Origin: a virus
Direction: 5' to 3' (one strand)
Length of the DNA: 64,000 bases
Virus record (IMG/VR): IMGVR_UViG_3300020471_000004
Span: 124,001 to 188,000 of that record
In this document: in pieces, positions 4,553-52,612 of the stretch
Layout of the letters: every line of letters begins with the position of its first letter
How positions within the stretch are numbered: position 1 is the stretch's first letter
The notes under the pieces: generated by a model
What the model saw: the letters and a program-made list of their open reading frames with translations, nothing else
What the model was told of the DNA's origin: nothing
The model's database searches: none
Program-made: the position numbers and the translations under genes

Positions 4553-4622
4553 GGTACAAAACACCAGTATACTAGACCCCTCCCCTTTGCTATAATTGGT
4601 TCATGTTGTGAAGAAGCACAGC
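4553..4622 (+). promoter_or_regulatory. GGTAC-box promoter 2 with 5' hairpin (no gene directly behind)
   Basis: GGTACAAAAC (4553-4562), 28 bp, then TGCTATAAT (-10 at 4591-4596). Eight bases later the leader hairpin GTTGTGAAGAAGCACAGC (4605-4622) begins. No reading frame follows before the next promoter 80 bp on; the stretch 4623-4697 holds only a TAGCTAGGTG copy (4637-4646). It is either a tandem promoter for the 4812 gene or the relic of a lost promoter-gene unit. Confidence 0.8.
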
Positions 4623-4703
4623 GCGCCTTAGCTTGCTAGCTAGGTGAGCCTGCTTTAAACGGCATTCGCTGATTTACGCTTGTTTGCTTAACTTTATTAA
4701 GCT

Positions 4704-4773
4704 GGTACAAAACAACCGTATTCGTAAAACTTACTTTTTGCTATAATAGGTACATGTTGTGAAGAAGCACAGC
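4704..4773 (+). promoter_or_regulatory. GGTAC-box promoter 3 with 5' hairpin
   Basis: AACTTTATTAAGCT then GGTACAAAAC (4704-4713), 28 bp, -10 TATAAT at 4742-4747 preceded by TTTGC. The leader hairpin GTTGTG-AAGAAG-CACAGC occupies 4756-4773, with the predicted RNA start just before it. It drives the basic protein at 4812. Confidence 0.85.
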
Positions 4774-20375: not shown

Positions 20376-21155
20376 ATGCGAAAAATAATATTGCTGGCTG
20401 CACTGGTATCGCTTGTTGCCGGTGCCCAGCAAGACAAAGAAATTCTAATAAGCATACCGGAGGACTTTTCATTTCCTCTAGGGCAACAAGTATTGAACGA
20501 TCTTGCAAAACAGGTATACTCAGGTATACCTGTCCGCGTTTCTACTGAATATTTTCCTGACAGGCAATCTGCCTTACTAATAAAGCAAGGCAAGGTCCAC
20601 GGAGAGATATACACATCTAAAGAATTTTACGACTCTTCTGGCATCGAATATATCTCTGAACCTATAACCACTATTCGTATGGCGATGTTTTGTCTAGATA
20701 GGAACGAGTGTGCTTTTCCAGACAAAAACTTTATTTGGATTATTCCAAAAGGCTCTGGCGTAGCAAGTAGCTATTGCCTTGAGAATAAAATATTTTGCGT
20801 TAGCGTAGATAACTCTACCAGTGCTTTTGTAGAGTTACTTAGAAACTCAGGCAGCATTTTGCTAATGGACAAACTTAGCGCCGGAGGGGTTATATGCAAC
20901 TCAGAAATCGATAAGATATATTACCGAGACGTACCTGAATTAGACTCGCTTGCTTTTGTTTCTATAGGCGAAGGTATGTCAGAATATGTTACGGAACTTG
21001 AGACAAATATAAAAAAGCTTAAACGTGATGGAACTATAGATGCTGCGATACAGAGATTCTGGCAAGCTTTGTATGATTGCAACATTTCACCTATTAATGT
21101 AGATGATAGATTTCTACAGTTGACAGAAGGACTAGTTGATGTGGGCACCCAATAA
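20376..21155 (+). CDS. secreted solute-binding-like protein (SBP family 3 type)
   Basis: 259 residues from ATG 20376. A signal peptide (MRKIILLAALVSLVAGA, 1-17) precedes a periplasmic-binding-protein fold: an ISIPEDF-like first strand (about 25-31), a central hinge region, and the C-terminal helix GTIDAAIQRFW typical of amino-acid-binding family 3. ATG 20355 would add seven residues. In bacteria such proteins deliver ligands to ABC importers or sensor kinases; no transporter genes accompany it here. It may bind a periplasmic ligand during infection or alter host sensing. Phage occurrence is unusual. Confidence 0.65.
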   Translation: MRKIILLAALVSLVAGAQQDKEILISIPEDFSFPLGQQVLNDLAKQVYSGIPVRVSTEYFPDRQSALLIKQGKVHGEIYTSKEFYDSSGIEYISEPITTIRMAMFCLDRNECAFPDKNFIWIIPKGSGVASSYCLENKIFCVSVDNSTSAFVELLRNSGSILLMDKLSAGGVICNSEIDKIYYRDVPELDSLAFVSIGEGMSEYVTELETNIKKLKRDGTIDAAIQRFWQALYDCNISPINVDDRFLQLTEGLVDVGTQ

Positions 21156-21564
21156 ATATTATTTAGCGCTTCCTAAAGGTTTACCTAATGAACCTGATAA
21201 CTGGGTAAGCGTTAAGTATACCGAACTTGGACATTTTTATAAAGCAGGAAACACGCACACCTATTATCCAGAAGACTTTGAACAGGTTCTTACTTTGGAT
21301 TTTTACCGTGCGGTCACCTTGTGTAAGCACTACAAAGAAGTATACCAGCAGAAGAAAAGAGACCCTAATTCTGTAGAAGAGATTCTTAAAATTCTTACTG
21401 CCTTGAAAGATGACAGGGAAGGCAATACGTCTATTGCTGACTCTGACCAAAATCAAATGATTCTTAAAATATTCCGATTACTTGATAAGGTAGAGAAAGA
21501 TGATCGAGAGCAAATATCCTCTTGTGACTTTGGGCACAATATTAAAACACAACAAGAACAATAG
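21139..21564 (+). CDS. hypothetical protein
   Basis: 141 residues, ATG 21139 with AAGGA upstream, overlapping the previous gene by 17 bp. Soluble with a charged helical C-terminus. Function unknown. Confidence 0.65.
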   Translation: MWAPNKYYLALPKGLPNEPDNWVSVKYTELGHFYKAGNTHTYYPEDFEQVLTLDFYRAVTLCKHYKEVYQQKKRDPNSVEEILKILTALKDDREGNTSIADSDQNQMILKIFRLLDKVEKDDREQISSCDFGHNIKTQQEQ

Positions 21565-22096
21565 TCCTTATTTGTTTACTATTGTTAGCGAAGACTACAT
21601 TAGTTTTCCTGCGACTTGTTTTTGGACAATCTGCGGTTTAGATGCCCAAGGTCACCCTGATTACAAGTACAAGGTCTTGCGCCCTAATACCCAGACTTGT
21701 TTTGAGCATGACGTGCCTGATGATGTTGATACTTGCTCTAATTGCGCGTTCTTGATAAAAGACTTGTATACTCATGACCTAGCACTTTTGGTTTTACCTA
21801 AAGACTACGCTGACCAGCTTCTTTTTACACAAGACGTTTATTATTCAGCTTCGGTAGCTATGGATAAAGAGTTACCTATTCATTGTAGTTTGAGGTTTAC
21901 ACCTTACGAGACTACCGAGTACTCTGGATTTACTTATGAGGTGCCTTTGAAATTCAGCACAAGCGGTATAAGTATAAAGAAATTTTTAAACCGGCATTTG
22001 CCTTTATGTAGTGCATCTTTCTATAAAAAGAATATGCTTGAGCATAGAGCAGATCACAACTTACTTTCTTTTACTGAGAGTATACGTGTTAGCTAA
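21500..22096 (+). CDS. hypothetical protein
   Basis: 198 residues, overlapping the previous gene by 65 bp. The MIESKYPLVTLG start looks natural. Cysteines at about 45-80, including a CSNC pair, may bind metal. Its stop is immediately followed by AAACTGTAAAC (22096-22106). Confidence 0.65.
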   Translation: MIESKYPLVTLGTILKHNKNNSPYLFTIVSEDYISFPATCFWTICGLDAQGHPDYKYKVLRPNTQTCFEHDVPDDVDTCSNCAFLIKDLYTHDLALLVLPKDYADQLLFTQDVYYSASVAMDKELPIHCSLRFTPYETTEYSGFTYEVPLKFSTSGISIKKFLNRHLPLCSASFYKKNMLEHRADHNLLSFTESIRVS

Positions 22097-22116
22097 AACT
22101 GTAAACTAAAGTAACA

Positions 22117-22163
22117 AAGCACACAAGCTAAGGATTTGTGCTTCAAATCAACGTATGTATAAT
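22117..22163 (+). promoter_or_regulatory. hairpin and -10 element before 22196
   Basis: AAGCACA (22117-22123) pairs with TGTGCTT (22137-22143), then TATAAT at 22158-22163. There is no GGTAC box. It is probably a terminator-promoter junction for the 22196-23757 operon. Confidence 0.4.
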
Positions 22164-22195
22164 GGAATTTGTTGTACGCCAAATAGAGAACTAAT

Positions 22196-22744
22196 ATGTT
22201 ATCAACCTATTCTTTAATAGTGGAAAACCAGGACTTGTTTTCTGCTCAAATTGCACAGGAAGTTTTTGGAGACGTAATAGCAGGTAACAATCCTAATCAA
22301 GTTATAGTAATTACTGATACCTCGCTGCGGAGGAAAGAGCTTACTTCAAACGCGTTTACTTGTTTAGGCGGCTTTGGTTTATTCGCGTCTTTCTTGGATC
22401 TAGACAGGTCTTTTCTAGAGAAAGACGCCGCTAGACCTGCTTTGGTTGCTTGCGCAAACCATGTAGCTAGCGGGTATGACTTTATTAAAGCAGGGCTAAC
22501 AAATTTTTATTTTATAGCTCCTCCTAGATGGACTACTTTGTATGAGCAAAGTAAGCTTGAAGCACACCTTGTGTCCAAGAACTCTATGTTATTGCATTTA
22601 ATGAGCAAGCTTGACCGACCGAGTGTTTTCGATTTTGAAGATATTTCTTTAACAATCGTCTGCAAGGACAAGCGAGTGTACGATATTGTAAAGAAGTGGG
22701 TAGACGATAAAAAGTATATACTATCTTCTAAAGGAGAATTATGA
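22196..22744 (+). CDS. hypothetical protein
   Basis: 182 residues, weak ribosome binding site. The middle (about 35-115: VIVITD, then ANHVASGYDF and NFYFIAPP) is reminiscent of a helicase C-terminal Rossmann half, but key motifs are missing, so this is not a call. Coupled by ATGA to uvsE, which suggests a linked role in DNA repair. Confidence 0.6.
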   Translation: MLSTYSLIVENQDLFSAQIAQEVFGDVIAGNNPNQVIVITDTSLRRKELTSNAFTCLGGFGLFASFLDLDRSFLEKDAARPALVACANHVASGYDFIKAGLTNFYFIAPPRWTTLYEQSKLEAHLVSKNSMLLHLMSKLDRPSVFDFEDISLTIVCKDKRVYDIVKKWVDDKKYILSSKGEL

Positions 22745-25483: not shown

Positions 25484-25551
25484 GGTACAAAACACCATAT
25501 ATACGTACCCCTGTAGTTTTGCTATACTGTATGCATGTTGTGACAGACAGC
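25484..25551 (+). promoter_or_regulatory. GGTAC-box promoter 9 with 5' hairpin
   Basis: AACTTTACTAAAGT then GGTACAAAAC (25484-25493), 29 bp, TTTGCTATACT (-10 at 25523-25528). The hairpin GTTGT-GACAG-ACAGC (25537-25551) keeps the stem with a different loop. A longer alternative pairs GTATGC 25529-25534 with GCATAC 25550-25555. It drives 25595. Confidence 0.8.
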
Positions 25552-25594: not shown

Positions 25595-27439
25595 ATGGCT
25601 AAAGTTCAAACAAACGAAGCAATGGTTGGTAAGCGCATCAAACTAGAAGATGGCAGCCGTGTTAAAATCCTAGAAGCACAGGCTTCTGGTTACAAACTAT
25701 CTAACGGTGACCGATTACCTGCTCGTAAAGTTGAAAAGCGCGGTCGCAGTTTTATCGAAACTGATCTTACTATGCGTGACCTAGAAGATACAGGTGAAGG
25801 TTATGTTGTTAAGCCTGGTTCTGAGGAAGCATCACCTAAGAAATCAGCCACGCGCAATAAAACAACTGGTAAGAAGAAAACTACCAGCAAGAAAAAAGAA
25901 ACAGGTCGTACAACTCGCAACTCTAAAACCAAAACCAAAACCAAAACCAAGTCTAAGTCAAAAACAAAAGACTCGGAAGAGACGCGTACTAATCGTAAGA
26001 CTAAAACCACGCGTAACAAAAAGAAAGACGATGCCCCGTCTTCTAAAAAGACCGTTTCGCGCCGCCGTACTAAGGCGAAAGAAGAAAAGGTTGAAACTAA
26101 GCCAGCTCGTAACCAAGAAGTCGAGTTGAAAAACAAGTCTCAGATGGAAAAAATTCAAACAGCTATTCGTTTAGCTGTCGGTGAGATCTTAGCGCCTTAC
26201 ACAAACATTGATAGTCAGAGCACTTGTTTGATGGCTAATCCTCCGAAGAGCGCGTTCTCGGTAACGATTGAAGTTAAAACTTCTCTAGTTAAGCCTGAAC
26301 ACCACAGCCTAAGCTATTACAAAGCAATTGCTAAGGAAGCAGGTGCTCGAATCATTACGCTTAAACCTAATATTCAGGCAAAGATTGCAGAACGCCTTGA
26401 ACCTGAAGAGTCTGTACGTGATTCGTTTGTTTTAGAATACGGTGATATTCTTCTTGATGAAGACGGTACTACCAAGCTTGTTTATTCAGGTGTTAACGTA
26501 AGAGAAAATAAGTTTGTTCTGGTTAACATGTCTACCGAGCAAGTTATTGAAATCGGCTTATCAGGTTTTGATAGCCTAGATACTACTGGCGTAAACGTTA
26601 CAAGTCTAGGTATGACTATTGAAGAATACAACCAGGAACTTGAAAACGCTGCCGATGTTGATGATGACGAGTTTGCTATTGATTCCGATGAAGATAAAAC
26701 TCCGCTTGAATCTTTAGACTGGGACAACACTGACCACGAAACTTTAGTTGATTTGCTTTCGGATGTTTACACCGAAGAAGAGCTGATTGCTTTCGCAGAG
26801 CAAATGGACGCGTCCGAAGAAGAGCTTGAAGCACCGATTAGCGAGTTGATTGAAATGATCGTTGCAGCACAAAAAGAAGAGTCGGAAGACTTTGAAGACG
26901 CAGACGAAGAACCTGAGTCGGACGAGCTAGAGCTTGGTGATATTGAAATGGACGAAGATGATCTTGAAACAGAAGATGATCTAGACCTAGAGGACGCCGA
27001 AGACCTAGACGGTATAGAAGAAGTTGTCGAAAACAAACTTTCTATTCGTGAAATGGCCGCAGCGTTGATAGAGTCAGGTGACTATACGCCTAAAGGTTTG
27101 AAGCGCCTGTCTGATGATGAAATCGAGCAGGAGTATCAAGACCTAATCGGTGACCAGGAAGAAGAAGCTGAAGAGCTTCCGTCTCTTGAAGAAATGAAAG
27201 AGACTCTTCTGTCAGACGGTCAAGTAACACCTAAAGGCTTAAAGCGTATGGAAGACGAGGAGATTGAAAGTCTTTACATTGAAGTATACGGTGATGAAGT
27301 CGAAGACGACCAAGACGATGTAGATATGCTTTTCGATGCCGACTCTGTTGAAGACGAAAACGACCTTGACTTAGAAGGCGAAGATGACGATGAAGAAGAC
27401 CTAGATCTAGAAGGCGAGTTAGAGTCTGAATTTGAATAA
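25595..27439 (+). CDS. bipartite basic/acidic protein with repeated C-terminal module
   Basis: 614 residues. Residues 1-70 form a small beta-rich domain; about 75-180 is a Lys/Thr/Arg-rich tail-like linker (encoded partly by AAAACC hexamer repeats). A globular segment follows (about 185-350), and the rest is strongly acidic. Two copies of a helical module occur near the end (REMAAALIESGDYTPKGLKR and EEMKETLLSDGQVTPKGLKR), related to a segment of the 31304 product (about 131-167). An architectural or DNA-organising protein is plausible. Function unknown. Confidence 0.7.
   Translation: MAKVQTNEAMVGKRIKLEDGSRVKILEAQASGYKLSNGDRLPARKVEKRGRSFIETDLTMRDLEDTGEGYVVKPGSEEASPKKSATRNKTTGKKKTTSKKKETGRTTRNSKTKTKTKTKSKSKTKDSEETRTNRKTKTTRNKKKDDAPSSKKTVSRRRTKAKEEKVETKPARNQEVELKNKSQMEKIQTAIRLAVGEILAPYTNIDSQSTCLMANPPKSAFSVTIEVKTSLVKPEHHSLSYYKAIAKEAGARIITLKPNIQAKIAERLEPEESVRDSFVLEYGDILLDEDGTTKLVYSGVNVRENKFVLVNMSTEQVIEIGLSGFDSLDTTGVNVTSLGMTIEEYNQELENAADVDDDEFAIDSDEDKTPLESLDWDNTDHETLVDLLSDVYTEEELIAFAEQMDASEEELEAPISELIEMIVAAQKEESEDFEDADEEPESDELELGDIEMDEDDLETEDDLDLEDAEDLDGIEEVVENKLSIREMAAALIESGDYTPKGLKRLSDDEIEQEYQDLIGDQEEEAEELPSLEEMKETLLSDGQVTPKGLKRMEDEEIESLYIEVYGDEVEDDQDDVDMLFDADSVEDENDLDLEGEDDDEEDLDLEGELESEFE
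25925..25950 (+). repeat. AAAACC tandem hexamers
   Basis: Four copies of AAAACC in tandem within the 25595 coding region, encoding alternating Lys-Thr. Such a tract is prone to length change by slippage in units of two codons. Confidence 0.8.
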
Positions 27440-27460
27440 GCCTGTACACCGGAGATAGAT

Positions 27461-27838
27461 ATGTCAGATCTAAAACCGATGTTTATAGGAACGTTTTATA
27501 GTCTTTTAGTCAGGTCTGCAATGTCTAGCGAGGAAGGGTATGTAACAGTACCCGACCTTTCTAAGCAGATAAACATACTACCGAATCGTGGAAACGAGCT
27601 AGGTAAAATTGTTAACCAGACGCTTAAAGAAATTGCTACGTTTGAACACAAGCATAACCGACCTATGTTAACAGCACTGGTCTGCAAACAAGACAAAGCA
27701 AGCGGTTCTTTTTACCCTAGCGATTGGTTCTATGTTTGTGCAGAGCAATTAGGCTACAATGTTCCTAAAACACCAGAAGGGAAGTTACAATTCTGGCGTG
27801 CTGAATTTGAAAAAGTTCACGCATACTGGTCTATATAG
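27461..27838 (+). CDS. hypothetical protein
   Basis: 125 residues, CCGGAG before ATG 27461. Mixed alpha/beta with a helix-turn-helix-like segment around 20-60, not conclusive. Function unknown. Confidence 0.65.
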   Translation: MSDLKPMFIGTFYSLLVRSAMSSEEGYVTVPDLSKQINILPNRGNELGKIVNQTLKEIATFEHKHNRPMLTALVCKQDKASGSFYPSDWFYVCAEQLGYNVPKTPEGKLQFWRAEFEKVHAYWSI

Positions 27839-27846
27839 GAGTTACT

Positions 27847-29223
27847 ATGTCTTATACTCGAGTATATGACGATGTGGATATGGATGCAATGCGCTCCTTG
27901 GTTCACGCTAGAATTTTACATCCGTCTGAATCAAAACTTGAGGGTACAGCATTGTCTGTACCTATTACACTGTTTGGTGAAGCTTACAAAAACACCAGGA
28001 CAGTAGAGCTTAGATTAAGCAAAACCTATCTAAGACAACTGGTTAATAAAGCAGCCGAAGGCTATGACCGTGCTACTTGTGAAACAATCAGCTTGTTATA
28101 CAGAGCAGGTTTAGGTTTGCCGAAATCTAAAGAATGTCATTTGCTATGGGACGTACTCCGAAGCGGGTATCAACCTAAAGTAAATGGTAAGATATTTTCA
28201 TATACAAATATGGTTTATATCTTAAAGCAACACTGGAAGATTTTGAGAGTAGAGAACAAAGATCCTAATTGGGTATACTTTAGTCCTCAAAATGATTTTT
28301 TCCGAAATCTTCTGCAACCTACGTTTAGCACTTACGTAAATGATAAGTTTGTAGCCAAGCGTAAACCTTTTGGTGTGTTTGCAAAATACGCAGGTATTGA
28401 TTGTACTCTTGTGTACAGAGCAAATTCACAAACAGGTGAAGGTACGTTTTGGGCAGCCTATGCAAAAGTACAGGACACTTTATTAAATGTCACTGCACAG
28501 GTAGCATGTTGTCCTAATATACCTAAAACTATAATTAACTCTAAGTTGAGTTCGTTTAGTCCTTTCTTTATGGTGAACGGTACATTAACTGTAAAGAATA
28601 GAGCGTTTAGAAAGCTTTCTAAATACTGGCAGCAAAATAATGTACTAGGTCTAATACGTGCAAGTCTAGACCAGGACATTTACTCGTTGGCAGAGTTTGC
28701 AGGAAGGGATTTACCTTCTAAGCATCCTTCGAAAAGCTTTGTAGATCGTTATCGCGGTAAATATCGTAAAGCAACAAAGTTTGTTGATTCGTTTAGAGGC
28801 AAACGTCCTAATCGAACCGATAGCCGTAGGTTAGAAAAGGCTCAGCATCTAATAGATACGTTTAACACCCATGCTATTGTTGTTGACCAAGCTAAAGAGC
28901 ACCGACAGGAATTAAAGCAATACGATATTGTAGATAACCTACAGTTCGTTGCGTATGACTTGTACGGATACTTATCAGAAGATTCTGATAGTTCTAGGTG
29001 CTTGCGAATACGTACCCCTTACGATAAGGTGCATAGCTTTATCAAAGAAATGGGATTCAATACAGCCGTTATGTGCAAACCTTTAAGTAAGCAAAAGGCA
29101 TGTGTTGACCGTGTAACAAGCACTGTACTTCCAGGCTTCATTATGAAAGGCTTGGTTTACAAGCTAGCTGAAAATTCAGCCGGCTCTGATTTAAACTGGG
29201 TTAAAGTTAAACTAGGAGACTAA
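27847..29223 (+). CDS. hypothetical protein (458 aa)
   Basis: AGGAG before ATG 27847. Basic and soluble, no recognised motif. It has a Lys/Arg-rich helical region (about 295-345) and several conserved-looking aromatic residues. Its place between two low-complexity proteins suggests a DNA-associated or virion role, but this is inference. Confidence 0.7.
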   Translation: MSYTRVYDDVDMDAMRSLVHARILHPSESKLEGTALSVPITLFGEAYKNTRTVELRLSKTYLRQLVNKAAEGYDRATCETISLLYRAGLGLPKSKECHLLWDVLRSGYQPKVNGKIFSYTNMVYILKQHWKILRVENKDPNWVYFSPQNDFFRNLLQPTFSTYVNDKFVAKRKPFGVFAKYAGIDCTLVYRANSQTGEGTFWAAYAKVQDTLLNVTAQVACCPNIPKTIINSKLSSFSPFFMVNGTLTVKNRAFRKLSKYWQQNNVLGLIRASLDQDIYSLAEFAGRDLPSKHPSKSFVDRYRGKYRKATKFVDSFRGKRPNRTDSRRLEKAQHLIDTFNTHAIVVDQAKEHRQELKQYDIVDNLQFVAYDLYGYLSEDSDSSRCLRIRTPYDKVHSFIKEMGFNTAVMCKPLSKQKACVDRVTSTVLPGFIMKGLVYKLAENSAGSDLNWVKVKLGD

Positions 29224-29224
29224 T

Positions 29225-30625
29225 ATGTCTAATCAAGATAACCAGCAAAATACTTCTGAAAACACTAATGTAGTAGAGCCCACTTCTGTTGAAACGGTTG
29301 TAGAGCAAACAACTGAACAGGAAACTGTAAACAATACGCAGAACACAAGTTCTACCGAAACCGAATCACTTACAAAGGATAGCGAAATGAGTAGTGAAAG
29401 CGAAAAGTTACGTCAACGTCAAATCAATGCAGGTATGTCACCTACTGATCAGGCCCGCGAAGAAATGATTAAAGAGCAAGAACAAAGAACAGGCGCTCCT
29501 AATCCTGCACCTCAAGTTGAATCGACTGTGCAAGAGCCGGTTACTGTTTCTCAAACAGAAAACGTTTCTGAAAATGTTTCGTTTGAATCTGAAATGCCTG
29601 TGCAAGAAGTCGAGTTAGCTTCGGCGCGCCCAATGTTTTCTGATTTGTTTGTTCCAGATTCGATGGAACTGTACACTTCTAACATTCGTTTGCACCTGGT
29701 TATTCCTGTTGCGTCTACTAGCATTCTATCTAAGAAGGTTAAGACAGTAGAAGTTGGTGACCAAGAATTCAATATTCGTAACACCTTGGCGCGACCTGTT
29801 AAAGGTAAGCCTGCAGGTCTTATGTTTAATGCGCTAAACGAGCTGCTGTCTACCGCAGACACTTATAACAACCAGCGTTTCTATTACGCAGGTGATGCGC
29901 TTACTCTTGAAAACATGAAAAGCGGACTGTGCGCCCGTCTAACAGACTTTGTTGCAGGTCTTGATTTAGCAGGCGGTCTTTCTAATGAATCTTGGGAAGA
30001 GCAAGTAGGTTTTGCACCTAGCGTTTCAATTACTCCTAGCTTTGACAGCGATGAGCTAATTGTTTCAATGGTTGTTCCGTTTCCTCTACTTTCAATGACG
30101 CCGGATAAACTTGAAACTTCGGCACAGGTAGAAGACTTCATTGTTAAACGTATCGTTGGCGATTCTAACATCAAAGTAGATATAAGTTACGCAATCAACA
30201 CCGTCGATGCAATCATTGACGAATCTGTAAACGAATTGGTGAACGGTCTTGTTGGTGAATCGGATTACGTTCTTGCCACTGACGCGGATCTAATTAGTTT
30301 CTACACTAGCCTGGAAGAAGGCGAAGACGAAGACTTTGATTATAGCGAAGACGAAGGCGAAGATTTTGATTCAGATGAAGATTCGGACGATGACGACCTA
30401 GAATCTGAAGGTGAAGATTCAGACGATGATGACCTTGAGTTAGAAGGTGACGAAGTAGATACAATCGACCTTGGTTATGTGCCGCATAACTCGCTTGCAG
30501 GTCTTGAAGCGCAATTGCGTTATTCTAACATTGGTGACCAATCATTTATCTTGGTTAGCAAATGTGTAAACGAGCTAGAAGATTTAGACTTATCTGGCGC
30601 CGAGCAAGAAGAGTCAGAAGACTAA
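29225..30625 (+). CDS. acidic protein with disordered ends
   Basis: 466 residues, AGGAGA before ATG 29225. Residues 1-135 are Gln/Asn/Thr/Glu-rich and look disordered; a folded beta-rich core spans about 140-370; an Asp/Glu/Ser tract (about 375-415) and an acidic C-terminus follow. No family recognised. The stop is immediately followed by AAACTGTAAAC (30626-30636). Confidence 0.7.
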   Translation: MSNQDNQQNTSENTNVVEPTSVETVVEQTTEQETVNNTQNTSSTETESLTKDSEMSSESEKLRQRQINAGMSPTDQAREEMIKEQEQRTGAPNPAPQVESTVQEPVTVSQTENVSENVSFESEMPVQEVELASARPMFSDLFVPDSMELYTSNIRLHLVIPVASTSILSKKVKTVEVGDQEFNIRNTLARPVKGKPAGLMFNALNELLSTADTYNNQRFYYAGDALTLENMKSGLCARLTDFVAGLDLAGGLSNESWEEQVGFAPSVSITPSFDSDELIVSMVVPFPLLSMTPDKLETSAQVEDFIVKRIVGDSNIKVDISYAINTVDAIIDESVNELVNGLVGESDYVLATDADLISFYTSLEEGEDEDFDYSEDEGEDFDSDEDSDDDDLESEGEDSDDDDLELEGDEVDTIDLGYVPHNSLAGLEAQLRYSNIGDQSFILVSKCVNELEDLDLSGAEQEESED

Positions 30626-30636
30626 AAACTGTAAAC
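30626..30636 (+). promoter_or_regulatory. recurrent AAACTGTAAAC motif
   Basis: This 11-mer lies directly behind the stop codon. Identical copies are at 22096-22106, 31242-31252 and 53480-53490; near copies are at 7681-7691 and 13190-13200. A -10-like TATACT follows at 30647-30652. Promoter or processing signal for the 30695 gene; function inferred. Confidence 0.4.
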
Positions 30637-30694
30637 TTTATTTGAATATACTAATTAAGTAGTTCAAGATTAATTTTGTATTTGGAGAAACATC

Positions 30695-31219
30695 ATGCGT
30701 AAAACAAAAGCACCGGCAAAGAAAGGCGCTGCTCGTAAAGGTAAGAAAACAGGAACAGCAGTTGCTCGTCCTAGCGGTGCAACACGCAATAGCCGTCTTG
30801 CTAAGTTTGAAGGCAAAATCAACAAGCTTGGTACAGACAAAGTTTCAACCAAAGCTTTAGCGGGAATGAAAGCTTCGGTAGTTGTATCGGCACCTGGTCA
30901 AATCGCTCAGATTATCGGTTACATGGTAGCCGCTGATGAAGACACTGTTACCTTGCGTACTAACAAGAAATCAGGTTCTTCTAAGCCTGTAATCAAAGTT
31001 ATCCCACGCAAACGTATTGCAGCATCTATCGGTGCACCTGGTGACAACTGTATCCTTTGGGTACAAGAGCAAAAAGAAATGTTTGTTCTTAAAGAAACAA
31101 CTGTAAAGGTTGAAGGCAACACTGCTTTCGTTACAGACCTTAAAACAGGCGGTGACGTTATTGAGTTCCCTCTTAACAATCCGCTTGTTGATGTAGCAAT
31201 CGAGTATATGGAAGACTAA
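30695..31219 (+). CDS. protein with histone-like basic tail and beta domain
   Basis: 174 residues, GGAG before ATG 30695. Residues 1-50 are a Lys/Arg/Ala tail; 55-170 are beta-rich with a strand pattern (DEDTVTLRTN) like one in the 40672 product (KDTVRLTSDDG). Probably DNA-binding. A 7-bp hairpin has the stop codon in its loop. Confidence 0.65.
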   Translation: MRKTKAPAKKGAARKGKKTGTAVARPSGATRNSRLAKFEGKINKLGTDKVSTKALAGMKASVVVSAPGQIAQIIGYMVAADEDTVTLRTNKKSGSSKPVIKVIPRKRIAASIGAPGDNCILWVQEQKEMFVLKETTVKVEGNTAFVTDLKTGGDVIEFPLNNPLVDVAIEYMED

Positions 31220-31227
31220 GGTCTTCC
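31210..31227 (+). terminator. hairpin around the stop codon
   Basis: GGAAGAC (31210-31216) pairs with GTCTTCC (31221-31227); the TAAG loop includes the stop codon. The tail TTCTC is weakly T-rich. It may terminate transcription or protect the 3' end. Confidence 0.45.
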
Positions 31228-31241
31228 TTCTCACAAAACAA

Positions 31242-31252
31242 AAACTGTAAAC
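31242..31252 (+). promoter_or_regulatory. recurrent AAACTGTAAAC motif
   Basis: A second intergenic copy, 52 bp before the hyperacidic gene at 31304. It is followed by an A+T-rich leader without a clear -10. Confidence 0.4.
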
Positions 31253-31303
31253 ATATTTCGTAACATAACGTTAGACTAAAAACACCTTATTAAGGATACA
31301 ATA

Positions 31304-32350
31304 ATGCGTAAATCAAAATCAGCCGCTAAAAAGACTCAAACTAATGCAGCAGTAGAGCTTCTGAAAACCCTTCTTGTCGGTCTTCAAGATGCTGCTAACG
31401 ATGGTGACGAGTCTTGTGCTGCGATTCTAGAACATGCTGGTGTTACCGCTGATTCTCAGGCAGCCTTAGAAGAAGCCGAAGAAGATGAAGATGAAGATGA
31501 CGAAGATGAAGACGTTGACCTCGAAGAGCTTTCTCTTAAAGAGCTGAAAGCACTTTGTAAAGAGCGTGGAATCAAAGTACCTCGCGGTGCTGACGAAGAC
31601 GCCTTAATCGAGCTTCTTGAGGAAGAAGAAGACGAGGAAGACGAAGAAGACGAGGCTGAGGAAGAAGAAGGTCTTGACGAAGAAGAGCGCGAAGAGCTAA
31701 TCGCTGACCTTGTTGCTGCCAAGATCAAAGGTCTTACAAAAGCCAAGTTGAAGAAAATGTCGGACGAGCAACTGCAAGAGCTTGAAGAAGAGCACTTGGG
31801 CGAAGACGAAGACGAAGACGAAGCTGAAGAAGACGGTGATGACTTGGAAGAGCTTTCTCTTAAAGAGCTTAAAGCGCTTTGTAAAGAACGCGGCATTAAA
31901 GTACCACGTGGTGCCGATGAAGAAAAGCTAATCGAGCTTCTTGAAGATGAAGAAGACGAAGAAGAAGGTGACGAAGAAGACGAGGAAGACGGTGACGATG
32001 TTGACCTTGAAGAGCTTTCTCTTAAAGAACTTAAAGCCCTTTGCAAAGAACGTGGTATTAAAGTTCCGCGCGGCGCAGATGAAGAAGATCTAATCGAGCT
32101 TCTTGAAGACGAAGACGAAGAAGAAGACGAAGAAGACGAGGAAGACGAAGACGATATTCCAGATCTTGATTCAATGTCTGACAAAGAGCTTATCGCTTTA
32201 GCCAAAGAGCTTAAACTTGTTAAAGGCGCAAAAGCTAAAAAGCTGAGTGTTGAAGATGCGCTTGAACTTCTTGCTGACCACTACGATATTGAAATCGAAG
32301 CCGAAGACGAAGAAGATGAAGACGAAGACGAGTGGGGCGAAGACGACTAA
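31304..32350 (+). CDS. hyperacidic protein with three SAP/Rho-N-like repeats
   Basis: 348 residues, AAGGA before ATG 31304. Three near-identical repeats (about 73-105, 181-213, 235-267) of the type LEELSLKELKALCKERGI followed by a basic turn and LIELLE are helix-extended-helix modules like SAP or Rho N-terminal domains, which bind DNA or RNA. They are separated by Asp/Glu tracts. A related helical module lies at about 131-167 and another at 288-328. The C-terminus ends DEDEDEWGEDD, similar to the 52151 product. Acidic tracts may act as a DNA mimic or chaperone for the basic neighbours; this is inference. Confidence 0.75.
   Translation: MRKSKSAAKKTQTNAAVELLKTLLVGLQDAANDGDESCAAILEHAGVTADSQAALEEAEEDEDEDDEDEDVDLEELSLKELKALCKERGIKVPRGADEDALIELLEEEEDEEDEEDEAEEEEGLDEEEREELIADLVAAKIKGLTKAKLKKMSDEQLQELEEEHLGEDEDEDEAEEDGDDLEELSLKELKALCKERGIKVPRGADEEKLIELLEDEEDEEEGDEEDEEDGDDVDLEELSLKELKALCKERGIKVPRGADEEDLIELLEDEDEEEDEEDEEDEDDIPDLDSMSDKELIALAKELKLVKGAKAKKLSVEDALELLADHYDIEIEAEDEEDEDEDEWGEDD
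31520..32104 (+). repeat. three 99-bp coding repeats
   Basis: Copies at about 31520-31618, 31844-31942 and 32006-32104 encode the same 33-residue module. The protein repeats are almost identical while many third positions differ, indicating purifying selection on the protein rather than very recent duplication. Confidence 0.75.
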
Positions 32351-32395
32351 TAGTTGATGTCTTTCGAATTTTAATTTTTTAACTTTTACATTGCA

Positions 32396-32428
32396 GGGAA
32401 GTTGTTAACAGTAAACACTTCCCTTTAT
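32396..32428 (+). terminator. hairpin with T-rich tail
   Basis: GGGAAGT (32396-32402) pairs with ACTTCCC (32417-32423), followed by TTTAT. The loop contains CAGTAAAC, a near copy of the recurrent CTGTAAAC core. Confidence 0.55.
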
Positions 32429-32447
32429 AACAAACTGGAGAACAAAA

Positions 32448-32963
32448 ATGGCTAAGACAGTCACTCTTAAAGCTACAAACTTTAATCAAGCGGGAAAGAA
32501 AGTAGAAGCAGTATTGAAAACTGTTGCAAGTACTAGCGCTATCATCGAAGCTCTTGAAAAAGCTGCGGATGCAACCGAAGACAAGAAAGCGACTCGCGCG
32601 TTTACTTCACAAGCTAACAAGCTAACTAAACTTGTTGAGCGCCAAGAAAAAGCAATTGCAGATCTGCAAGGTAAGCTAGTTGTTGAAGGCGAAGAAGCTC
32701 CGGCGAAAGCAAAAGGCAAAGCGAAAGCTGAAAAAGCTCCAGCGAAGGCAAAAGGCAAAGCGAAAGCAAAAGCAAAAGCCGAAAAGCCTGCCGCTAAAAC
32801 CAAAGCAACCAAGGCAAAAGGCAAAGCGAAGGCAAAAGCCGAAAAGCCTGCTGCTAAAACCAAAGCAAAGGGTAAAGCAAAGGCAAAAGCTACTGCAAAA
32901 CCTGCACGTAAACCTCGCAGCAAAAAGACTGCACCAAAAGGTGAATTCGATTTCGAAGCTTAG
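32448..32963 (+). CDS. histone H1/AlgP-like basic protein
   Basis: 171 residues, GGAG before ATG 32448. Residues 1-80 are helical; 85-160 consist of KAKGKAKAK- and EKPAAKTK-type repeats, as in histone H1 C-terminal tails and bacterial AlgP/Hc1-like proteins. It almost certainly binds nucleic acid without sequence specificity. It sits directly after the hyperacidic repeat protein, which suggests a basic/acidic pair. It could condense phage DNA or be packaged in the head; neither is shown. Confidence 0.75.
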   Translation: MAKTVTLKATNFNQAGKKVEAVLKTVASTSAIIEALEKAADATEDKKATRAFTSQANKLTKLVERQEKAIADLQGKLVVEGEEAPAKAKGKAKAEKAPAKAKGKAKAKAKAEKPAAKTKATKAKGKAKAKAEKPAAKTKAKGKAKAKATAKPARKPRSKKTAPKGEFDFEA

Positions 32964-33004: not shown

Positions 33005-33035
33005 GGGCCGTTAGTTTATACTGCGGCCCTTTATT
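33005..33035 (+). terminator. rho-independent terminator
   Basis: GGGCCG (33005-33010) pairs with CGGCCC (33024-33029), then TTTATTCGTTTTT. It ends the 32448 transcript. A TAGCTAGGTG copy is just upstream (32980-32989). Confidence 0.65.
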
Positions 33036-33053
33036 CGTTTTTAAAGGTATTTT

Positions 33054-33539
33054 ATGTACGATATTCCAGAAACTATCGACCGGTATTTTATTCTTAGTTT
33101 ACTAAACGGTAGCTACAGCTTTGCAGGTTTGTACTCTAGACTAGTTGTTATCCGAAATATTCTTGACCGGCATCTAGAGATAGTTCAACTAGAGTTAGAC
33201 ATTTCTTTAGCAGATACTAAAGAGCGTGGAAAAGTATCTTTTCAACCTACACCTGATTCAATGAGGTTAGAGAACAAGCTAACTGAGGCAAAAGCTCGAA
33301 GCGTACGGTTGTATAATCTAGAGAACAAAAGAACTTTAAAAACTGTAAATGCTATATTAGAAACTATACAATCAGGCTATAGTTCTTTTGTTAGCAGTAT
33401 AGAGGAATTCGCAGATGATCCTTTCATTTGTGATAACCTTAATTTGCCAGAGCCTGATTTAGACCAATTTATACAAGAATTAAAATCATTACTTAAGGTT
33501 GGAAAATGCCTAGCAATAGAAGAACATACAAATCAATAG
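33054..33539 (+). CDS. hypothetical protein
   Basis: 161 residues, AAAGG before ATG 33054. Mostly helical with a possible coiled coil in the middle. The 3' end overlaps the next gene by 34 bp. Function unknown. Confidence 0.65.
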   Translation: MYDIPETIDRYFILSLLNGSYSFAGLYSRLVVIRNILDRHLEIVQLELDISLADTKERGKVSFQPTPDSMRLENKLTEAKARSVRLYNLENKRTLKTVNAILETIQSGYSSFVSSIEEFADDPFICDNLNLPEPDLDQFIQELKSLLKVGKCLAIEEHTNQ

Positions 33540-33934
33540 CTGTGCAAAGCATAGGCGCATTTAACTCTACGCAGACTTTAATTAGGAATTTAAAAGAAGA
33601 CCTTTTTCGAATTATAGCTTTGCCTGGAGGTTACTACTTTTGCAGCTGGATTGATTTCTCTAATTTAGGAACTACAGAAGAAGTTGGTATACACACCAGC
33701 ATGTTAGACTCTGTTTTCAAAAGCTTAGACTCTATAGAGCCTGGCCAGTTTCTAAATATAGATGCATTGCAAGAGTTTTTAACTTTACGTAAGGATTTTG
33801 AAGCATGGGCTCCTATGTATATTATTCAAAAAACGGACACCTACTTCAAAAGAGATTTAGAGTCTGAGACAAAATTCAAAAATTTTATACAGGACAAGAC
33901 TGAGCCTGTAGATCCGAACAATTTTAAAATCTAA
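33506..33934 (+). CDS. hypothetical protein
   Basis: 142 residues starting inside the previous gene with GGTTGGA upstream. Soluble, no motif. It lies directly upstream of the topoisomerase subunit gene. Confidence 0.65.
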   Translation: MPSNRRTYKSIAVQSIGAFNSTQTLIRNLKEDLFRIIALPGGYYFCSWIDFSNLGTTEEVGIHTSMLDSVFKSLDSIEPGQFLNIDALQEFLTLRKDFEAWAPMYIIQKTDTYFKRDLESETKFKNFIQDKTEPVDPNNFKI

Positions 33935-33943
33935 GGAAGTTTG

Positions 33944-35974
33944 ATGGCTTTACGAAAGAGAAAAACAACTACAGCCAAGACCTCAGCGAAGAAAGGCAAA
34001 AACAAAGCTGGTTATGATGAAGATAGCATTGACGTACAGGAAGGTCTAAAAGGTATTCGCCTTAACCCCGGTATGTATCTTGCTGCTCTGGGTAATCGAA
34101 TGGTGTTTCGAATGGTAAAAGAAGTTGTAGATAATTTCTATGACGAATACGCCGCTGGTCGAAACACAGGGGGTGAGGTAATCTACGACCCCAAGACTAA
34201 CGCCTGTATTGTAGCTGACTATGCTCAAGGTATTCCTGTCGGATTAAAACAGACTGAACACGAAGGTAAGGTAAGTACACTTACTCTTATTCTTACAAAA
34301 GTTCACGCAGGTGGTAAGTTTAATGACAAGGCTTACAAAACCTCAAGTGGTACGCACGGTGTTGGTGTTTCTGCGGTAAACGCTGTTTCAAAAGTTCTTG
34401 AAGTATGGACACACCGTGATGGAAGTTGGTACTATCAAAAGTTTAACACTGGTATCCCTGCTGCTAAAGTCAAGAAACTTTCTAAGACGCCTACCGAATT
34501 CAAAAAGATGGGCCTCGCAGAAAAGCGTTTTGACAAGTATGGTACTATTATTCGATTTGTTCCTGACCAGACGGTTGTGTCCGAAGACGCTGCTCGTGGT
34601 AGTCGTAAAACAGAAGACAAACTTACCAAAGCGATTCTGGAAGAAAGCACTACAGAGCGTTGGTTAAAAACGCTTGCCTTATTGAACAAAAATTTTAAGA
34701 TCACATTCAATCATATTGGTAGTGAACCTAAAGTTTTCTTAAACAAGAAAGGTCTAGATTTCCTTATTAGTGAACGCATCAAAGAAAACGAGCTAGGTGC
34801 AGTTATCAAAAAACCTTTTTCGTATTCAGACGGCGAACTTGATTGTGTTGTTACTTGGACTGACCAGCCTGATGACGTACACTTTACATCGTTTGTTAAC
34901 TCGTCTGCTACTTTATCTCATGGTACTCACGTTGAAGGTTTCCGTTCGGCGTTACAAAAAGCAATTAAGCCTCACTTAACAGAGCGCGATAAAAAAGCCA
35001 AGTTCACGGTACATGACCTAATGATTGGTGCGTGTGGTATTCTAAACTTCCGAATGAACTCTGCTATATATGATTCACAGGTCAAAGATAAGTTGGTATC
35101 TAAAGTATCAAAAATCATTGACGATAAACTTAGCGAACCCTTATTGCTGTGGTTTAAAGAAAATCCTCGCGTTGCTAAAAACATAATCAAGAAGGCTACT
35201 ACTGCAAACAGTGCCCGTGAATCTTTGAAAAAGGTAATGCGTTCACTAACAGAAGTTAGAAAAGGCAGTCGTGGTAAGTTGCCTGAAAACCTTACTGAGG
35301 CCCCTAACGTTAAGCCTGATAAAAGAGAAATCTATATAGTAGAAGGTGACTCGGCAGGCGGTACAGCTAAAGACGCCCGTAATGATAACCAAGAGATATT
35401 AAGATTATCTGGTAAGCCTTTGAATGCGCTTAAAGCAGGACTGGACAAATTGCTTACCAGCAAGGCAATAGTTAATATTATTATATCGCTGGGTATTGAC
35501 CCTAGTTCTCTTGATGTTAACTCAGAGAATCCTAAGTTTAGTGTTGATAAGTTGCGTTGTCGTGACGTTATACTTTTAAGTGATCCTGACCCTGATGGTT
35601 CACACATCAATACTCTTATTCTTAGTCTATTCTTCCGACTTATGCCAGACCTTATTAAGCAAGGTCGTTTGTATGTTATTGAAGCCAAGCTGTACAGTGC
35701 TTTGTATAAAGGTAAACTTTACACAGGCGATACGTTTGAAGAATGTTATTCTCAAATGCCCCAGACACCTGATGCTAAACGTAGCGTTATACGCATCAAA
35801 GGTTGGGGAGAAATTAACGCAGATATGATGGACCCTATTGCGTTTGATCCAGAGTTACGCACTATACGCCGTATTACTTGGGTCGATGACCCGGATAAAA
35901 TACAACACTTCCGAAACATTGCTGCTGAATCAAGCGCAAGCCGACGAGAACTTCTAGGTCTCAAGGAAGCTTAA
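33944..35974 (+). CDS. DNA topoisomerase II subunit B (GyrB/ParE-like)
   Basis: 676 residues; ATG 33944 with AAGGAAG, one codon after an in-frame TTG. The GHKL ATPase shows E60 and N64 (KEVVDN), HAGGKF (121-126) and GTHGVG (136-141). The transducer domain follows, then the TOPRIM domain with VEGDSAGGTA (466-475) and SDPDPDGSH (546-554), the metal and DNA-cleavage residues. The C-terminal part is intact. A basic N-terminal extension (about 1-25) is extra. With the 37065 product it should form an A2B2 enzyme for the phage's own supercoiling or decatenation. Confidence 0.95.
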   Translation: MALRKRKTTTAKTSAKKGKNKAGYDEDSIDVQEGLKGIRLNPGMYLAALGNRMVFRMVKEVVDNFYDEYAAGRNTGGEVIYDPKTNACIVADYAQGIPVGLKQTEHEGKVSTLTLILTKVHAGGKFNDKAYKTSSGTHGVGVSAVNAVSKVLEVWTHRDGSWYYQKFNTGIPAAKVKKLSKTPTEFKKMGLAEKRFDKYGTIIRFVPDQTVVSEDAARGSRKTEDKLTKAILEESTTERWLKTLALLNKNFKITFNHIGSEPKVFLNKKGLDFLISERIKENELGAVIKKPFSYSDGELDCVVTWTDQPDDVHFTSFVNSSATLSHGTHVEGFRSALQKAIKPHLTERDKKAKFTVHDLMIGACGILNFRMNSAIYDSQVKDKLVSKVSKIIDDKLSEPLLLWFKENPRVAKNIIKKATTANSARESLKKVMRSLTEVRKGSRGKLPENLTEAPNVKPDKREIYIVEGDSAGGTAKDARNDNQEILRLSGKPLNALKAGLDKLLTSKAIVNIIISLGIDPSSLDVNSENPKFSVDKLRCRDVILLSDPDPDGSHINTLILSLFFRLMPDLIKQGRLYVIEAKLYSALYKGKLYTGDTFEECYSQMPQTPDAKRSVIRIKGWGEINADMMDPIAFDPELRTIRRITWVDDPDKIQHFRNIAAESSASRRELLGLKEA

Positions 35975-36982: not shown

Positions 36983-37027
36983 GGTACAAAACAGACTATA
37001 AACTTATACGTGTGTTTGTGTTATAAT
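36983..37027 (+). promoter_or_regulatory. GGTAC-box promoter 10
   Basis: AACTTTATTAAGTC then GGTACAAAAC (36983-36992), 29 bp, TTATAAT with -10 at 37022-37027. No GTTGTG hairpin. It drives the topoisomerase A subunit gene. Confidence 0.8.
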
Positions 37028-37064: not shown

Positions 37065-38672
37065 ATGAGAAAGAGAAAAGCTTCCTCAGATTCAGAAGAT
37101 ACCAAACGCCGTCTGGTGCGCAGACGAAAAACAGGCGTTACAAAATCTAAAACAAAAAAGAAATCTTTAGGTAAGCTTGCACAGAAAGCCGCTAAGCCTG
37201 ATTACAACACAAACATCGAAGGTGCAGATGAAATTACCTTGGATGATTTTGCTGGTGCAAGTCTTACACACTACGGATCATATGTTGTAGAAGAACGTGC
37301 TGTACCTGATTACCGCGATGGTCTTAAACCTGTTCACAGATACATACTTTGGGCAATGCATGACCTAGGTATCAATTCTAGATCAGGTTACAAAAAGTCA
37401 GCTCGTACTATTGGTGATGTTCTTGGTAAGTATCACCCGCATGGTGACCAGTCTGCTTACGGTGCTATGTCTACTCTTGTTAACTACAAGTTGAATCCTC
37501 AACTTGTTCAAGGTCAAGGTAACTGGGGTACTCCTGTAGACCCTCATGCTGCAATGCGTTATACCGAGGCCCGATTAAGTGCGTTCAGTGATATTTTCTT
37601 GCTAGATAAGCACTACTTGAAAACTGTTCCTAAAATCGATAACTTTGACCAAACTTTAAAGGTACCGCTGTATTTGCCTGCTACGTTACCTACACTTATG
37701 ATAACAGGTAGCTCTGGAATCGGTTTTGGTATAGCTTCATCGAATCCTCCGTTTGACGTAGACGGTGTGTACAAGATGGCTGTAAGTAGCTTGAAGGCGT
37801 TTGCTGCTAAAAAGAAAGTTACTTATAAAACCTGCATGAAGAACCTGACTATTGATTATGGTTTCGGGTGTACGCAGGTTAGTGGTGATGATGAAATGGA
37901 AGACCTGTTCAAGACAGGTAAAGCTTCTATTAAATTTGTACCTGAAATAAAAGTTGACCCCAAGACCAAGACTATCGAGATAGTTTCATTCGCGCCTGGC
38001 TTTAGAAGTGTAAGTGGTATACAGAAAAAGCTAGACAAGATTGCAGGCTGGGACGGTGTTAGCAGAGCTGGTGACAACTCAGGTGCTAAAAACAAAAAAG
38101 CAGGAAAGCTAGGTGCATATTATTATGTAACTGCTTCGCGTGGAACATCTGAGCAGGCTTTGTATGACTTGGCTGACCGAGTATACAAGGAAGTTACAGG
38201 CTCTGAGAGTTACGATTTAGGATTTACTGTTCGTAACCATGAAGATCGTAACCAGTTTATAAAAAGCGGCTACCCTGCTTACTTTAATAACTGGGCCAAG
38301 TATCGATTCATACTTGAGCACAAAGCTATTGCTATACATATCGAAGAGCGAAAGGCAGCTATTGCCTTGCTTGAATTAAAAGTGTTGGCAGTAGACAAGC
38401 GTGATATAATTATGCAGGTTCTTAAATCTAAAACAAAGGACTTAGATGCTACGCTTGCTAAGAAACTAAGAATACCTCTTGAAGATGCCAAGACTATTCT
38501 GAACCTACAGACTAGACGACTAGCAGCTTTAGAGAAACCTCAACTTCTGGCAGAGATTAAAGACCTCAAGAGTCAGATACGAGAGTTACAAAAGGATGAT
38601 GCAAATCCTTTGAAACGAATCTTGCGAATCACCAAGGAACAGTATGATACGTACCGCAAGCGTATCAAATAA
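37065..38672 (+). CDS. DNA topoisomerase II subunit A (GyrA/ParC-like), short form
   Basis: 535 residues, AAGGG before ATG 37065. After a basic tail (1-45) comes the breakage-reunion core: RDGLKPVHRYILWAM (84-98), GKYHPHGD (121-128), QGNWGTPVD and the catalytic Tyr166 in AAMRYTEAR. The coiled-coil gate is at the end (about 430-520). The C-terminal beta-pinwheel that wraps DNA in GyrA is absent, so relaxing or decatenating activity is more likely than gyrase activity. At the quinolone pocket, E. coli Ser83 and Asp87 correspond to Gln129 and Gly133. Confidence 0.95.
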   Translation: MRKRKASSDSEDTKRRLVRRRKTGVTKSKTKKKSLGKLAQKAAKPDYNTNIEGADEITLDDFAGASLTHYGSYVVEERAVPDYRDGLKPVHRYILWAMHDLGINSRSGYKKSARTIGDVLGKYHPHGDQSAYGAMSTLVNYKLNPQLVQGQGNWGTPVDPHAAMRYTEARLSAFSDIFLLDKHYLKTVPKIDNFDQTLKVPLYLPATLPTLMITGSSGIGFGIASSNPPFDVDGVYKMAVSSLKAFAAKKKVTYKTCMKNLTIDYGFGCTQVSGDDEMEDLFKTGKASIKFVPEIKVDPKTKTIEIVSFAPGFRSVSGIQKKLDKIAGWDGVSRAGDNSGAKNKKAGKLGAYYYVTASRGTSEQALYDLADRVYKEVTGSESYDLGFTVRNHEDRNQFIKSGYPAYFNNWAKYRFILEHKAIAIHIEERKAAIALLELKVLAVDKRDIIMQVLKSKTKDLDATLAKKLRIPLEDAKTILNLQTRRLAALEKPQLLAEIKDLKSQIRELQKDDANPLKRILRITKEQYDTYRKRIK

Positions 38673-51855: not shown

Positions 51856-52151
51856 TGGATTTAGAGAAACGTAAACAGTTAAGTGACTGGTACGCTAAAG
51901 CATTCGACTTAGACTCTGAAATAGATTGGACTCAAGACACGTATCGAATTAACTTAGACGGTTTTGATCGCCAATCTAAAGTAAAACTAATGCAAGGTAT
52001 TGTTAGCAGTGTAGGCGATGCTGTTTACGCTCAACAAAAAATTGCACCAAACGACCCGGAGGTAAGCTATTTGTTTTACTTCCATACACTAACTGTACCA
52101 AATACCGTGATACTAGAGAACCTATACGCGGTACATTCTGAGGATTTATAA
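51855..52151 (+). CDS. hypothetical protein
   Basis: 98 residues, again coupled by TAATGG. Helical N-terminal half. Function unknown. Confidence 0.65.
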   Translation: MDLEKRKQLSDWYAKAFDLDSEIDWTQDTYRINLDGFDRQSKVKLMQGIVSSVGDAVYAQQKIAPNDPEVSYLFYFHTLTVPNTVILENLYAVHSEDL

Positions 52152-52612
52152 TGGATACTGAATTATTCCAATCAATCGTTTTGGATGAAGAAGACAACAA
52201 CATAATGGTTGTTACTAATAGCTCTCTTGTTGACTTTACTTTCAGTTTGTTTGACCGTTTCGTTTCAGAAGTTCTTGATAACCAAGAAACGATTGAAGAC
52301 GATGACTCGGGCGAAGAGCTAGTTGCATCTGTTATCAGTTATGCCGAAGCTATTATCGATGATGCCTTGGTAGAAGAGCTTACGCCTACTGTTACGCAAG
52401 TTATTCAAGTGGGCAGCACTTTAATCATTGTTGTGGAACTTGATCAAGAAATTATCGAGTACCTTGACGAAGGCTATGCAGATACCGACAGTGTAGCTGC
52501 TGTTATTTTCGGCGATAGTGATTCGGAAGAAGATGAATCTGATGAAGATGACGATGAATCTGACGAAGATGACGATGAAGATGAAGATGAAGACGAATGG
52601 GACGTAGACTAA
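52151..52612 (+). CDS. acidic protein with DEDEDEW tail
   Basis: 153 residues, coupled by TAATGG. A folded helical/beta core (1-125) and an Asp/Glu/Ser tail ending DEDEDEWDVD. The tail closely resembles that of the 31304 product; acidic tails with a terminal aromatic are used by single-strand-binding and sliding-clamp partners for protein contacts. Function unknown. Confidence 0.65.
   Translation: MDTELFQSIVLDEEDNNIMVVTNSSLVDFTFSLFDRFVSEVLDNQETIEDDDSGEELVASVISYAEAIIDDALVEELTPTVTQVIQVGSTLIIVVELDQEIIEYLDEGYADTDSVAAVIFGDSDSEEDESDEDDDESDEDDDEDEDEDEWDVD

Follow-up and report, generated by a model that had tools for sequence, protein, structure and literature searches.

What do strongly acidic and strongly basic proteins do for a virus that encodes them side by side, close to its gyrase genes? 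The question is raised by a 64,000-nucleotide stretch of virus DNA (hereafter the window), which spans positions 124001-188000 of the 232,692-bp IMG/VR record IMGVR_UViG_3300020471_000004. An initial annotation of the window described a cluster of hyperbasic and hyperacidic open reading frames (ORFs) and compared it to a histone and its acidic chaperone. The cluster belongs to a block that is conserved as a module in a single clade of jumbo phages (PaBG/Lu11/NCTB, 'Lupandier') and that, on balance, probably constitutes a DNA-organising nucleoprotein or condensate set, active in the infected cell while the phage replicates.

The cluster comprises five ORFs, all on the + strand, that start at positions 25595 (basic linker and acidic tail), 29225, 30695, 31304, and 32448, with K+R/D+E fractions of 0.13/0.27, 0.05/0.22, 0.17/0.10, 0.11/0.43, and 0.27/0.11, respectively. 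ORFs were called mechanically, and those of at least 60 amino acids (267 in the whole record) were ranked by local charge. The thresholds for charge extremes were set after inspection of the data, the promoter, hairpin, and charge tests described below were likewise devised after inspection, and the lineages compared are few and unevenly related. Charge extremes account for 18 of the 267 ORFs, with five of the 18 inside seven consecutive ORFs, and the densest seven-ORF run is exactly 25595-32963 (permutation p 0.003, with post hoc thresholds). The proposed cluster thus holds in its coordinates, strand, and charge character, and the topoisomerase genes said to come after it are present as gyrB (33941) and gyrA (37065), with two small ORFs intervening. 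ORF 30695, described as a basic-tail protein, is indeed basic, but its basic region is N-terminal here and forms a C-terminal tail in the Dickeya, Erwinia, and Yersinia relatives.

The last two ORFs of the cluster encode a polyanion and a polycation, and with two hairpins they make up one unit:

31304-32350, + strand: polyanion with a K-rich start, a helical head of ~40 residues, and three SAP modules; net charge -109
32395-32424, + strand: hairpin AGGGAAGTTGTTAACAGTAAACACTTCCCT between the polyanion and H1-like genes
32448-32963, + strand: H1-like polycation with a helical head of ~80 residues, a K/A/P tail, and the acidic-aromatic C-terminus EFDFEA; net charge +29
33005-33042, + strand: intrinsic-terminator-like hairpin with a T tract, closing the polyanion/H1-like unit

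The SAP repeats predicted for 31304 are confirmed in the window protein, in which Pfam SAP (PF02037) matches three stretches with an E value of 2e-9; Rho_N is matched as well. An essential DNA-binding role of the repeats is not supported, because no Pfam SAP match was obtained for the orthologues of NCTB, AD1, contig L021, PaBG, and Lu11, and the PaBG and Lu11 polyanions are nearly pure D/E chains. Across ten lineages, the polyanion carries a net charge of -97±7 (coefficient of variation, CV, 0.08) at lengths of 150-348 amino acids (CV 0.23), with no correlation between charge and length (r -0.35). The corresponding net-charge CVs of the other acidic block proteins are 0.29 (gene A) and 0.61 (gene D). 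Since the polyanion charge is steady and is attained in PaBG and Lu11 without SAP, it appears to be total charge, and not the SAP module, that is conserved.

The H1-like polycation is similarly constant, with a net charge of +27±3 in the ten lineages. Its tail contains K31, A29, and P7 among ~90 residues in the window and is similar in all ten, and every C-terminus (10/10) is acidic-aromatic, e.g., EFDFEA, DFDFEME, and FEDFDDLD. The label "H1-like" holds for composition (Lys/Ala/Pro tail) and not for domain content: hmmscan gave no linker-histone, Hc1, or HC2 match for the proteins of the window, NCTB, PaBG, Lu11, L021, and AD1. Membership of 32448 in the linker-histone family, with its H1 globular domain, was consequently rejected. 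General family searches with the H1-like proteins returned weak matches only, to coiled-coil families. In each of the ten lineages, the polyanion carries 3.0-4.2 times the charge of the polycation, as though about four H1-like chains balance one polyanion; speculatively, such a ratio would suit a tetrameric H1-like head.

A hairpin occupies the gap between the two genes in 10/10 phages (z -1.8 to -7.1 relative to shuffles). In the Dickeya/Erwinia/Yersinia subgroup, and in this subgroup only, it shows compensatory changes at 5/18 pairs and covariation above all 500 shuffles. A T-tract terminator lies 3′ of the H1-like gene in 8/10 phages and is not clear in NCTB and Yoloswag. An Rfam search of the 25-34 kb region gave no match. 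The simplest reading of this arrangement would be a single transcript with a structured element between the two genes, so that synthesis of the polyanion precedes that of the polycation. A D/E-rich chain that adjoins a histone-like polycation in an apparent shared operon is, by composition only, an arrangement of the acidic-chaperone type.

The pair belongs to a longer block, whose remaining genes and flanking gyrase genes are:

25595-27439, + strand: gene A; small conserved N-terminal domain (KOW/SH3-like by eye), K/R-rich linker, middle region, and D/E-rich tail
27461-27838, + strand: gene B; ~125 amino acids, conserved at 57% in NCTB and by position elsewhere
27847-29223, + strand: gene C; ~460 amino acids, Sel1-like repeat and coiled-coil-like region
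29225-30625, + strand: gene D; acidic, alpha/beta core with D/E-rich inserts; 466 amino acids here, up to 1062 in relatives
30695-31219, + strand: SH3-like protein (provisional label); disordered basic N-terminus and two predicted small beta-barrels
33506-33934, + strand: small conserved gene preceding gyrB
33941-35974, + strand: gyrB, topoisomerase II large subunit
37065-38672, + strand: gyrA, topoisomerase II

No DNA-level similarity to deposited phages was found. The nearest named phage by protein is NCTB (GyrB 72%), and no other close relative was found; the GyrB proteins of PaBG, Lu11, Yoloswag, AD1, JA29, and fHe-Yen9-02 are at about 43-45%. NCTB, PaBG, Lu11, Yoloswag, AD1, and JA29 have been described jointly as the 'Lupandier group' (PMC7412058), to which fHe-Yen9-02 is added in this analysis. 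The order A-(B)-C-D-SH3-polyanion-H1 is found upstream of gyrB in NCTB, AD1, JA29, Yoloswag, fHe-Yen9-02, and contig L021. Conservation of the order of A, C, D, SH3, polyanion, and H1 extends to IMG/VR contigs. Hidden Markov models (HMMs) of the block, built from six phages, recover its genes in at least 17 loci, and partially in PaBG and Lu11. In these two phages, A, C, D, SH3, polyanion, and H1 correspond to gp131, 128, 127, 126, 125, and 124 (PaBG) and to gp157, 161, 162, 163, 164, and 165 (Lu11), with A, D, and the polyanion assigned from order, size, and architecture. Ratios of nonsynonymous to synonymous substitution (dN/dS) are 0.00-0.29 between close pairs for the SH3-like, polyanion, H1-like, A, C, and D genes, which indicates purifying selection and shows the charged ORFs to be real proteins, translated and constrained. 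The block was not found described in the open-access literature that was searched, a result that does not prove that no description exists.

The outgroup phage Motura has neither orthologues of the SH3-like, polyanion, A, C, and D genes nor the promoter motif. Upstream of its gyrB lies a gene for an unrelated-looking basic/acidic protein, and its gyrA is followed by one for a K/A-tailed protein; low complexity accounts for most of the HMM score of the latter, and the likeness is one of analogy only. These proteins may reflect convergence or remote kinship. A single Motura protein encoded beside gyrB (L034:44516-45403) begins with a basic N-terminus, continues with a beta-rich core, and ends in a poly-D/E tail; in architecture, though not in HMM matches, it resembles a fusion of the SH3-like protein and the polyanion. 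Motura also carries homospermidine synthase and glutathionylspermidine synthase genes (L035:25268-28093), and small polycations possibly serve DNA neutralisation there in the absence of the block.

Two promoter-like classes, early-type and replication-class, were found around the block and elsewhere, and both probably function as promoters, judging by sequence:

25484-25528, + strand: putative early-type promoter of gene A, GGTACAAAACA ... TGCTATACT; NCTB has the element upstream of its gene A too
30625-30636, + strand: replication-class motif AAAACTGTAAAC, 70 nt upstream of the SH3-like gene
31241-31252, + strand: replication-class motif AAAACTGTAAAC, 63 nt upstream of the polyanion gene
36983-37024, + strand: putative early-type promoter of gyrA, GGTACAAAACA ... 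TGTTATAAT

The early-type element is strongly conserved and consists of CTTTATTAAG-GGTACAAAACA followed ~20-25 nt on by a TGCTATAAT-like element, often with CATGTTGTGAAGA next. It precedes 4812, 5968, 17647, 23820, 25096, 25595 (gene A), and gyrA at 37065, with several small genes among those it precedes; the copies lie at window positions 4553-4760, 5881, 17569, 23770, 24999, 25484, and 36983, with two in tandem upstream of the basic ORF 4812. The replication-class motif, AA[A/T]CTGTAAA, occurs at 24 sites where 3.3 would be expected, and 15 of these lie in non-coding DNA, which makes up 9.5% of the sequence. The motif or a one-base variant stands upstream of the genes for DNA polymerase, the clamp, a further DNA-polymerase-family protein, primase, dCMP deaminase, and the 5′-3′ exonuclease; at the clamp loader gene the distance is greater (583 nt). 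Polyanion orthologues have it 53-84 nt upstream in 8/9 phages, with the variant AAAAGTGTAAAC in PaBG, and in Lu11 the same motif is annotated as a 'putative middle/late promoter'. Upstream of the H1-like gene, no convincing promoter of either class was found in any of nine phages.

The module is proposed to operate as follows. Gene A and gyrA would be expressed from early-type promoters; the polyanion/H1-like operon, like the SH3-like gene, would be expressed from the class that putatively also drives DNA polymerase, clamp, primase, and exonuclease. Transcripts would start downstream of AACTGTAAA, with a single polyanion–H1 transcript and processing at the hairpin. The H1-like protein, through its helical head and Lys/Ala/Pro tail, would condense newly made phage DNA by non-specific binding. 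The polyanion, the first product of the shared transcript, would act as a disordered counter-charge and chaperone that keeps the polycation soluble and exchangeable, and the two proteins together may build a condensate that surrounds the genome as it replicates. DNA binding, mutual binding, condensation, and chaperoning by the pair are what we infer from these features. A bolder version, tentative and rather unlikely, holds that the pair is stoichiometry-controlled (~-97/+27, one transcript via structured RNA) and forms a liquid or gel-like compartment of the chromatin type for the jumbo phage genome, independently of the protein-shelled phage nucleus.

The other block genes add structural detail. 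The D/E-rich tail of gene A contains short helix-pair modules; its HMM orthologues occur in all Dickeya/Erwinia/Yersinia loci, NCTB, and L021, and its counterparts PaBG gp131 and Lu11 gp157 are assigned by position and architecture. Lu11 gp157 seems to carry ~4 copies of the gene A N-terminal domain, and an extra gene 3′ of gene A in Dickeya/Erwinia phages (L002:6804-8036, L003:8276-9205, L004:7181-8260) resembles a duplicate of that domain, with weak HMM support. Gene C is a conserved block member that the initial annotation did not list. A motif resemblance to a degenerate NAD-ligase was dropped, as Pfam and PDB profile searches pointed to a Sel1-like repeat and spectrin-like coils; further contig searches using gene C found nothing. 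The gene D core (29225) is modelled by AlphaFold2 (AF2) as a low-confidence alpha/beta mixture with no PDB match, which lends a nucleoplasmin-like core no clear support. The AF2 model of the SH3-like protein (174 amino acids) has a predicted local distance difference test score of 68 overall and mostly 78-93 across residues 61-170. Neither a PDB comparison of the predicted fold nor a PDB profile search with the family of this protein gave a significant match. Its orthologues include PaBG gp126 and Lu11 gp163.

Charge-extreme ORFs are also present elsewhere in the record, beyond the block. A 659-residue phage ATPase-family protein (phrog_20988; record positions 20620-22599; L023:623-2599, - strand) reaches a net charge of -44 within 50 residues, exceeding every block protein, and a 153-residue ORF at window positions 52151-52612 (D+E 37%, K+R 1%) has no family match. 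A search for the major capsid protein via PF07068 gave no match, and its control was equally silent.

These other charge-extreme ORFs, and the fast divergence of the tails, are what would be expected if the block consisted of unrelated charged proteins that are merely co-located, with charge extremes arising by drift in low-complexity tails. That explanation is already disfavoured and highly improbable: gene order is fixed in at least eight lineages, dN/dS is low throughout, the polyanion net charge stays within 8% despite a twofold range in length, and promoter and hairpin are conserved. A role in host takeover or defence, although unlikely, has more to recommend it. In that case, the polyanion would mimic DNA and titrate nucleoid proteins of the host or nucleases that target DNA, with the host nucleoid displaced or silenced by the polycation and the SH3/KOW-like proteins. 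Polyacidic DNA mimics occur in other phages, and gene A has an early-type promoter; however, the polyanion and SH3-like genes belong to the replication class, not the early class, and a co-transcribed polycation of fixed charge would counteract a free DNA mimic.

The initial annotation suggested that the proteins might be packaged, in which case they would be internal head proteins that enter the capsid with the genome and neutralise it or are ejected with it. Some viruses neutralise their packaged DNA with polycations, genes for terminase and portal follow ~13-16 kb downstream, and the 'middle/late' label of the Lu11 motif would suit such a role. Yet the promoter class is the one common to replication genes, and none of PaBG gp124-131 is among the 14 Coomassie-visible virion proteins identified in a low-sensitivity proteome (gp76, 80, 81, 83, 94, 191, 202, 213, 214, 215, 240, 257, 261, and 263), so that packaging is quite unlikely. 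It is for these reasons, co-regulation with replication genes and absence from the 14 PaBG bands, together with the conserved charges, that an intracellular role is favoured. An RNA or transcription module, in which the SH3/KOW-like and Rho_N/SAP-like proteins target the transcription complex and the H1-like protein binds RNA, would account for the double match of 31304 to Rho_N and SAP, for the resemblance of the gene A N-terminus and the SH3-like barrels to small RNA- or polymerase-binding folds, and for the weak RNase P p29 and RimP matches of 30695 (E>0.1). Against this distinctly unlikely option, several polyanion orthologues are without SAP/Rho_N, there is no significant KOW or NusG match, and the SH3-like fold has no PDB match.

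A conserved charged pair co-regulated with DNA replication fits the favoured role of an intracellular DNA-organising and chaperone module. Several observations weigh against that role. Low-complexity charged tails arise easily and can serve other purposes, the AF2 models show no recognisable DNA-binding or chaperone fold, no sigma-70 region 2 match was found in the record, and the hairpin of the window itself is only modestly stable relative to shuffles (z -1.9). Furthermore, the PaBG and Lu11 sets, complete and in order, lie downstream of gyrB and do not adjoin it; the block therefore travels as a unit, for which adjacency to gyrase is not essential.

A disordered complex offers one of the closest known parallels: histone H1.0 (+53) and prothymosin-alpha (-44) bind each other with picomolar affinity while disordered (PMC7661507). 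The phage pair likewise joins a disordered polycation rich in Lys to a disordered polyanion rich in D/E, whose opposite charge is comparable or larger (+27/-97). It differs in lacking sequence homology and the H1 globular domain, in being encoded by adjacent genes of one apparent operon, and in a ~3.6-fold charge excess of the polyanion per molecule. By analogy, the pair would work like a histone-tail/acidic-chaperone pair without belonging to the linker-histone family. The pairing originally proposed is accordingly retained for the conserved polycation/polyanion unit, its one apparent operon, its conserved charges, and its co-regulation with replication, and not for histone-family homology. 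Among bacterial Lys/Ala/Pro-tailed nucleoid proteins, mycobacterial HbhA consists of a coiled coil and a Lys-Pro-Ala tail that binds DNA non-specifically (PMC10665949). The phage H1-like protein shares the helical N-terminal head and the K/A/P tail; no homology was found, and the phage protein differs in its polyanion partner and in its C-terminus, a conserved acidic tip of the [DE]F[DE]xF-like kind. The three near-identical modules of 31304 resemble the helix-extended-helix of SAP/Rho_N but are embedded in poly-D/E and have no Pfam match in the PaBG, Lu11, NCTB, and AD1 orthologues.

Phage-encoded proteins that organise DNA during replication include phi29 p6 and SPO1 TF1, whose folds differ from those of the block and for which we know of no acidic partner in the same operon. 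The internal proteins of T4 and the inner body of phiKZ are charged virion proteins associated with phage DNA; the block differs from them in its replication-class promoter and in the absence of its homologues from the identified PaBG virion proteins.

For the question of how jumbo phages that form no nucleus keep replicating DNA of hundreds of kilobases in order, the block provides candidate genes that are conserved in phages whose hosts can be cultured (Dickeya, Erwinia, Yersinia, and Pseudomonas), with specific predictions for their timing, partners, and stoichiometry. If the proposed role is correct, bacterial viruses would have evolved the logic of histone tail and acidic chaperone on their own, under selection for total charge and not for sequence.

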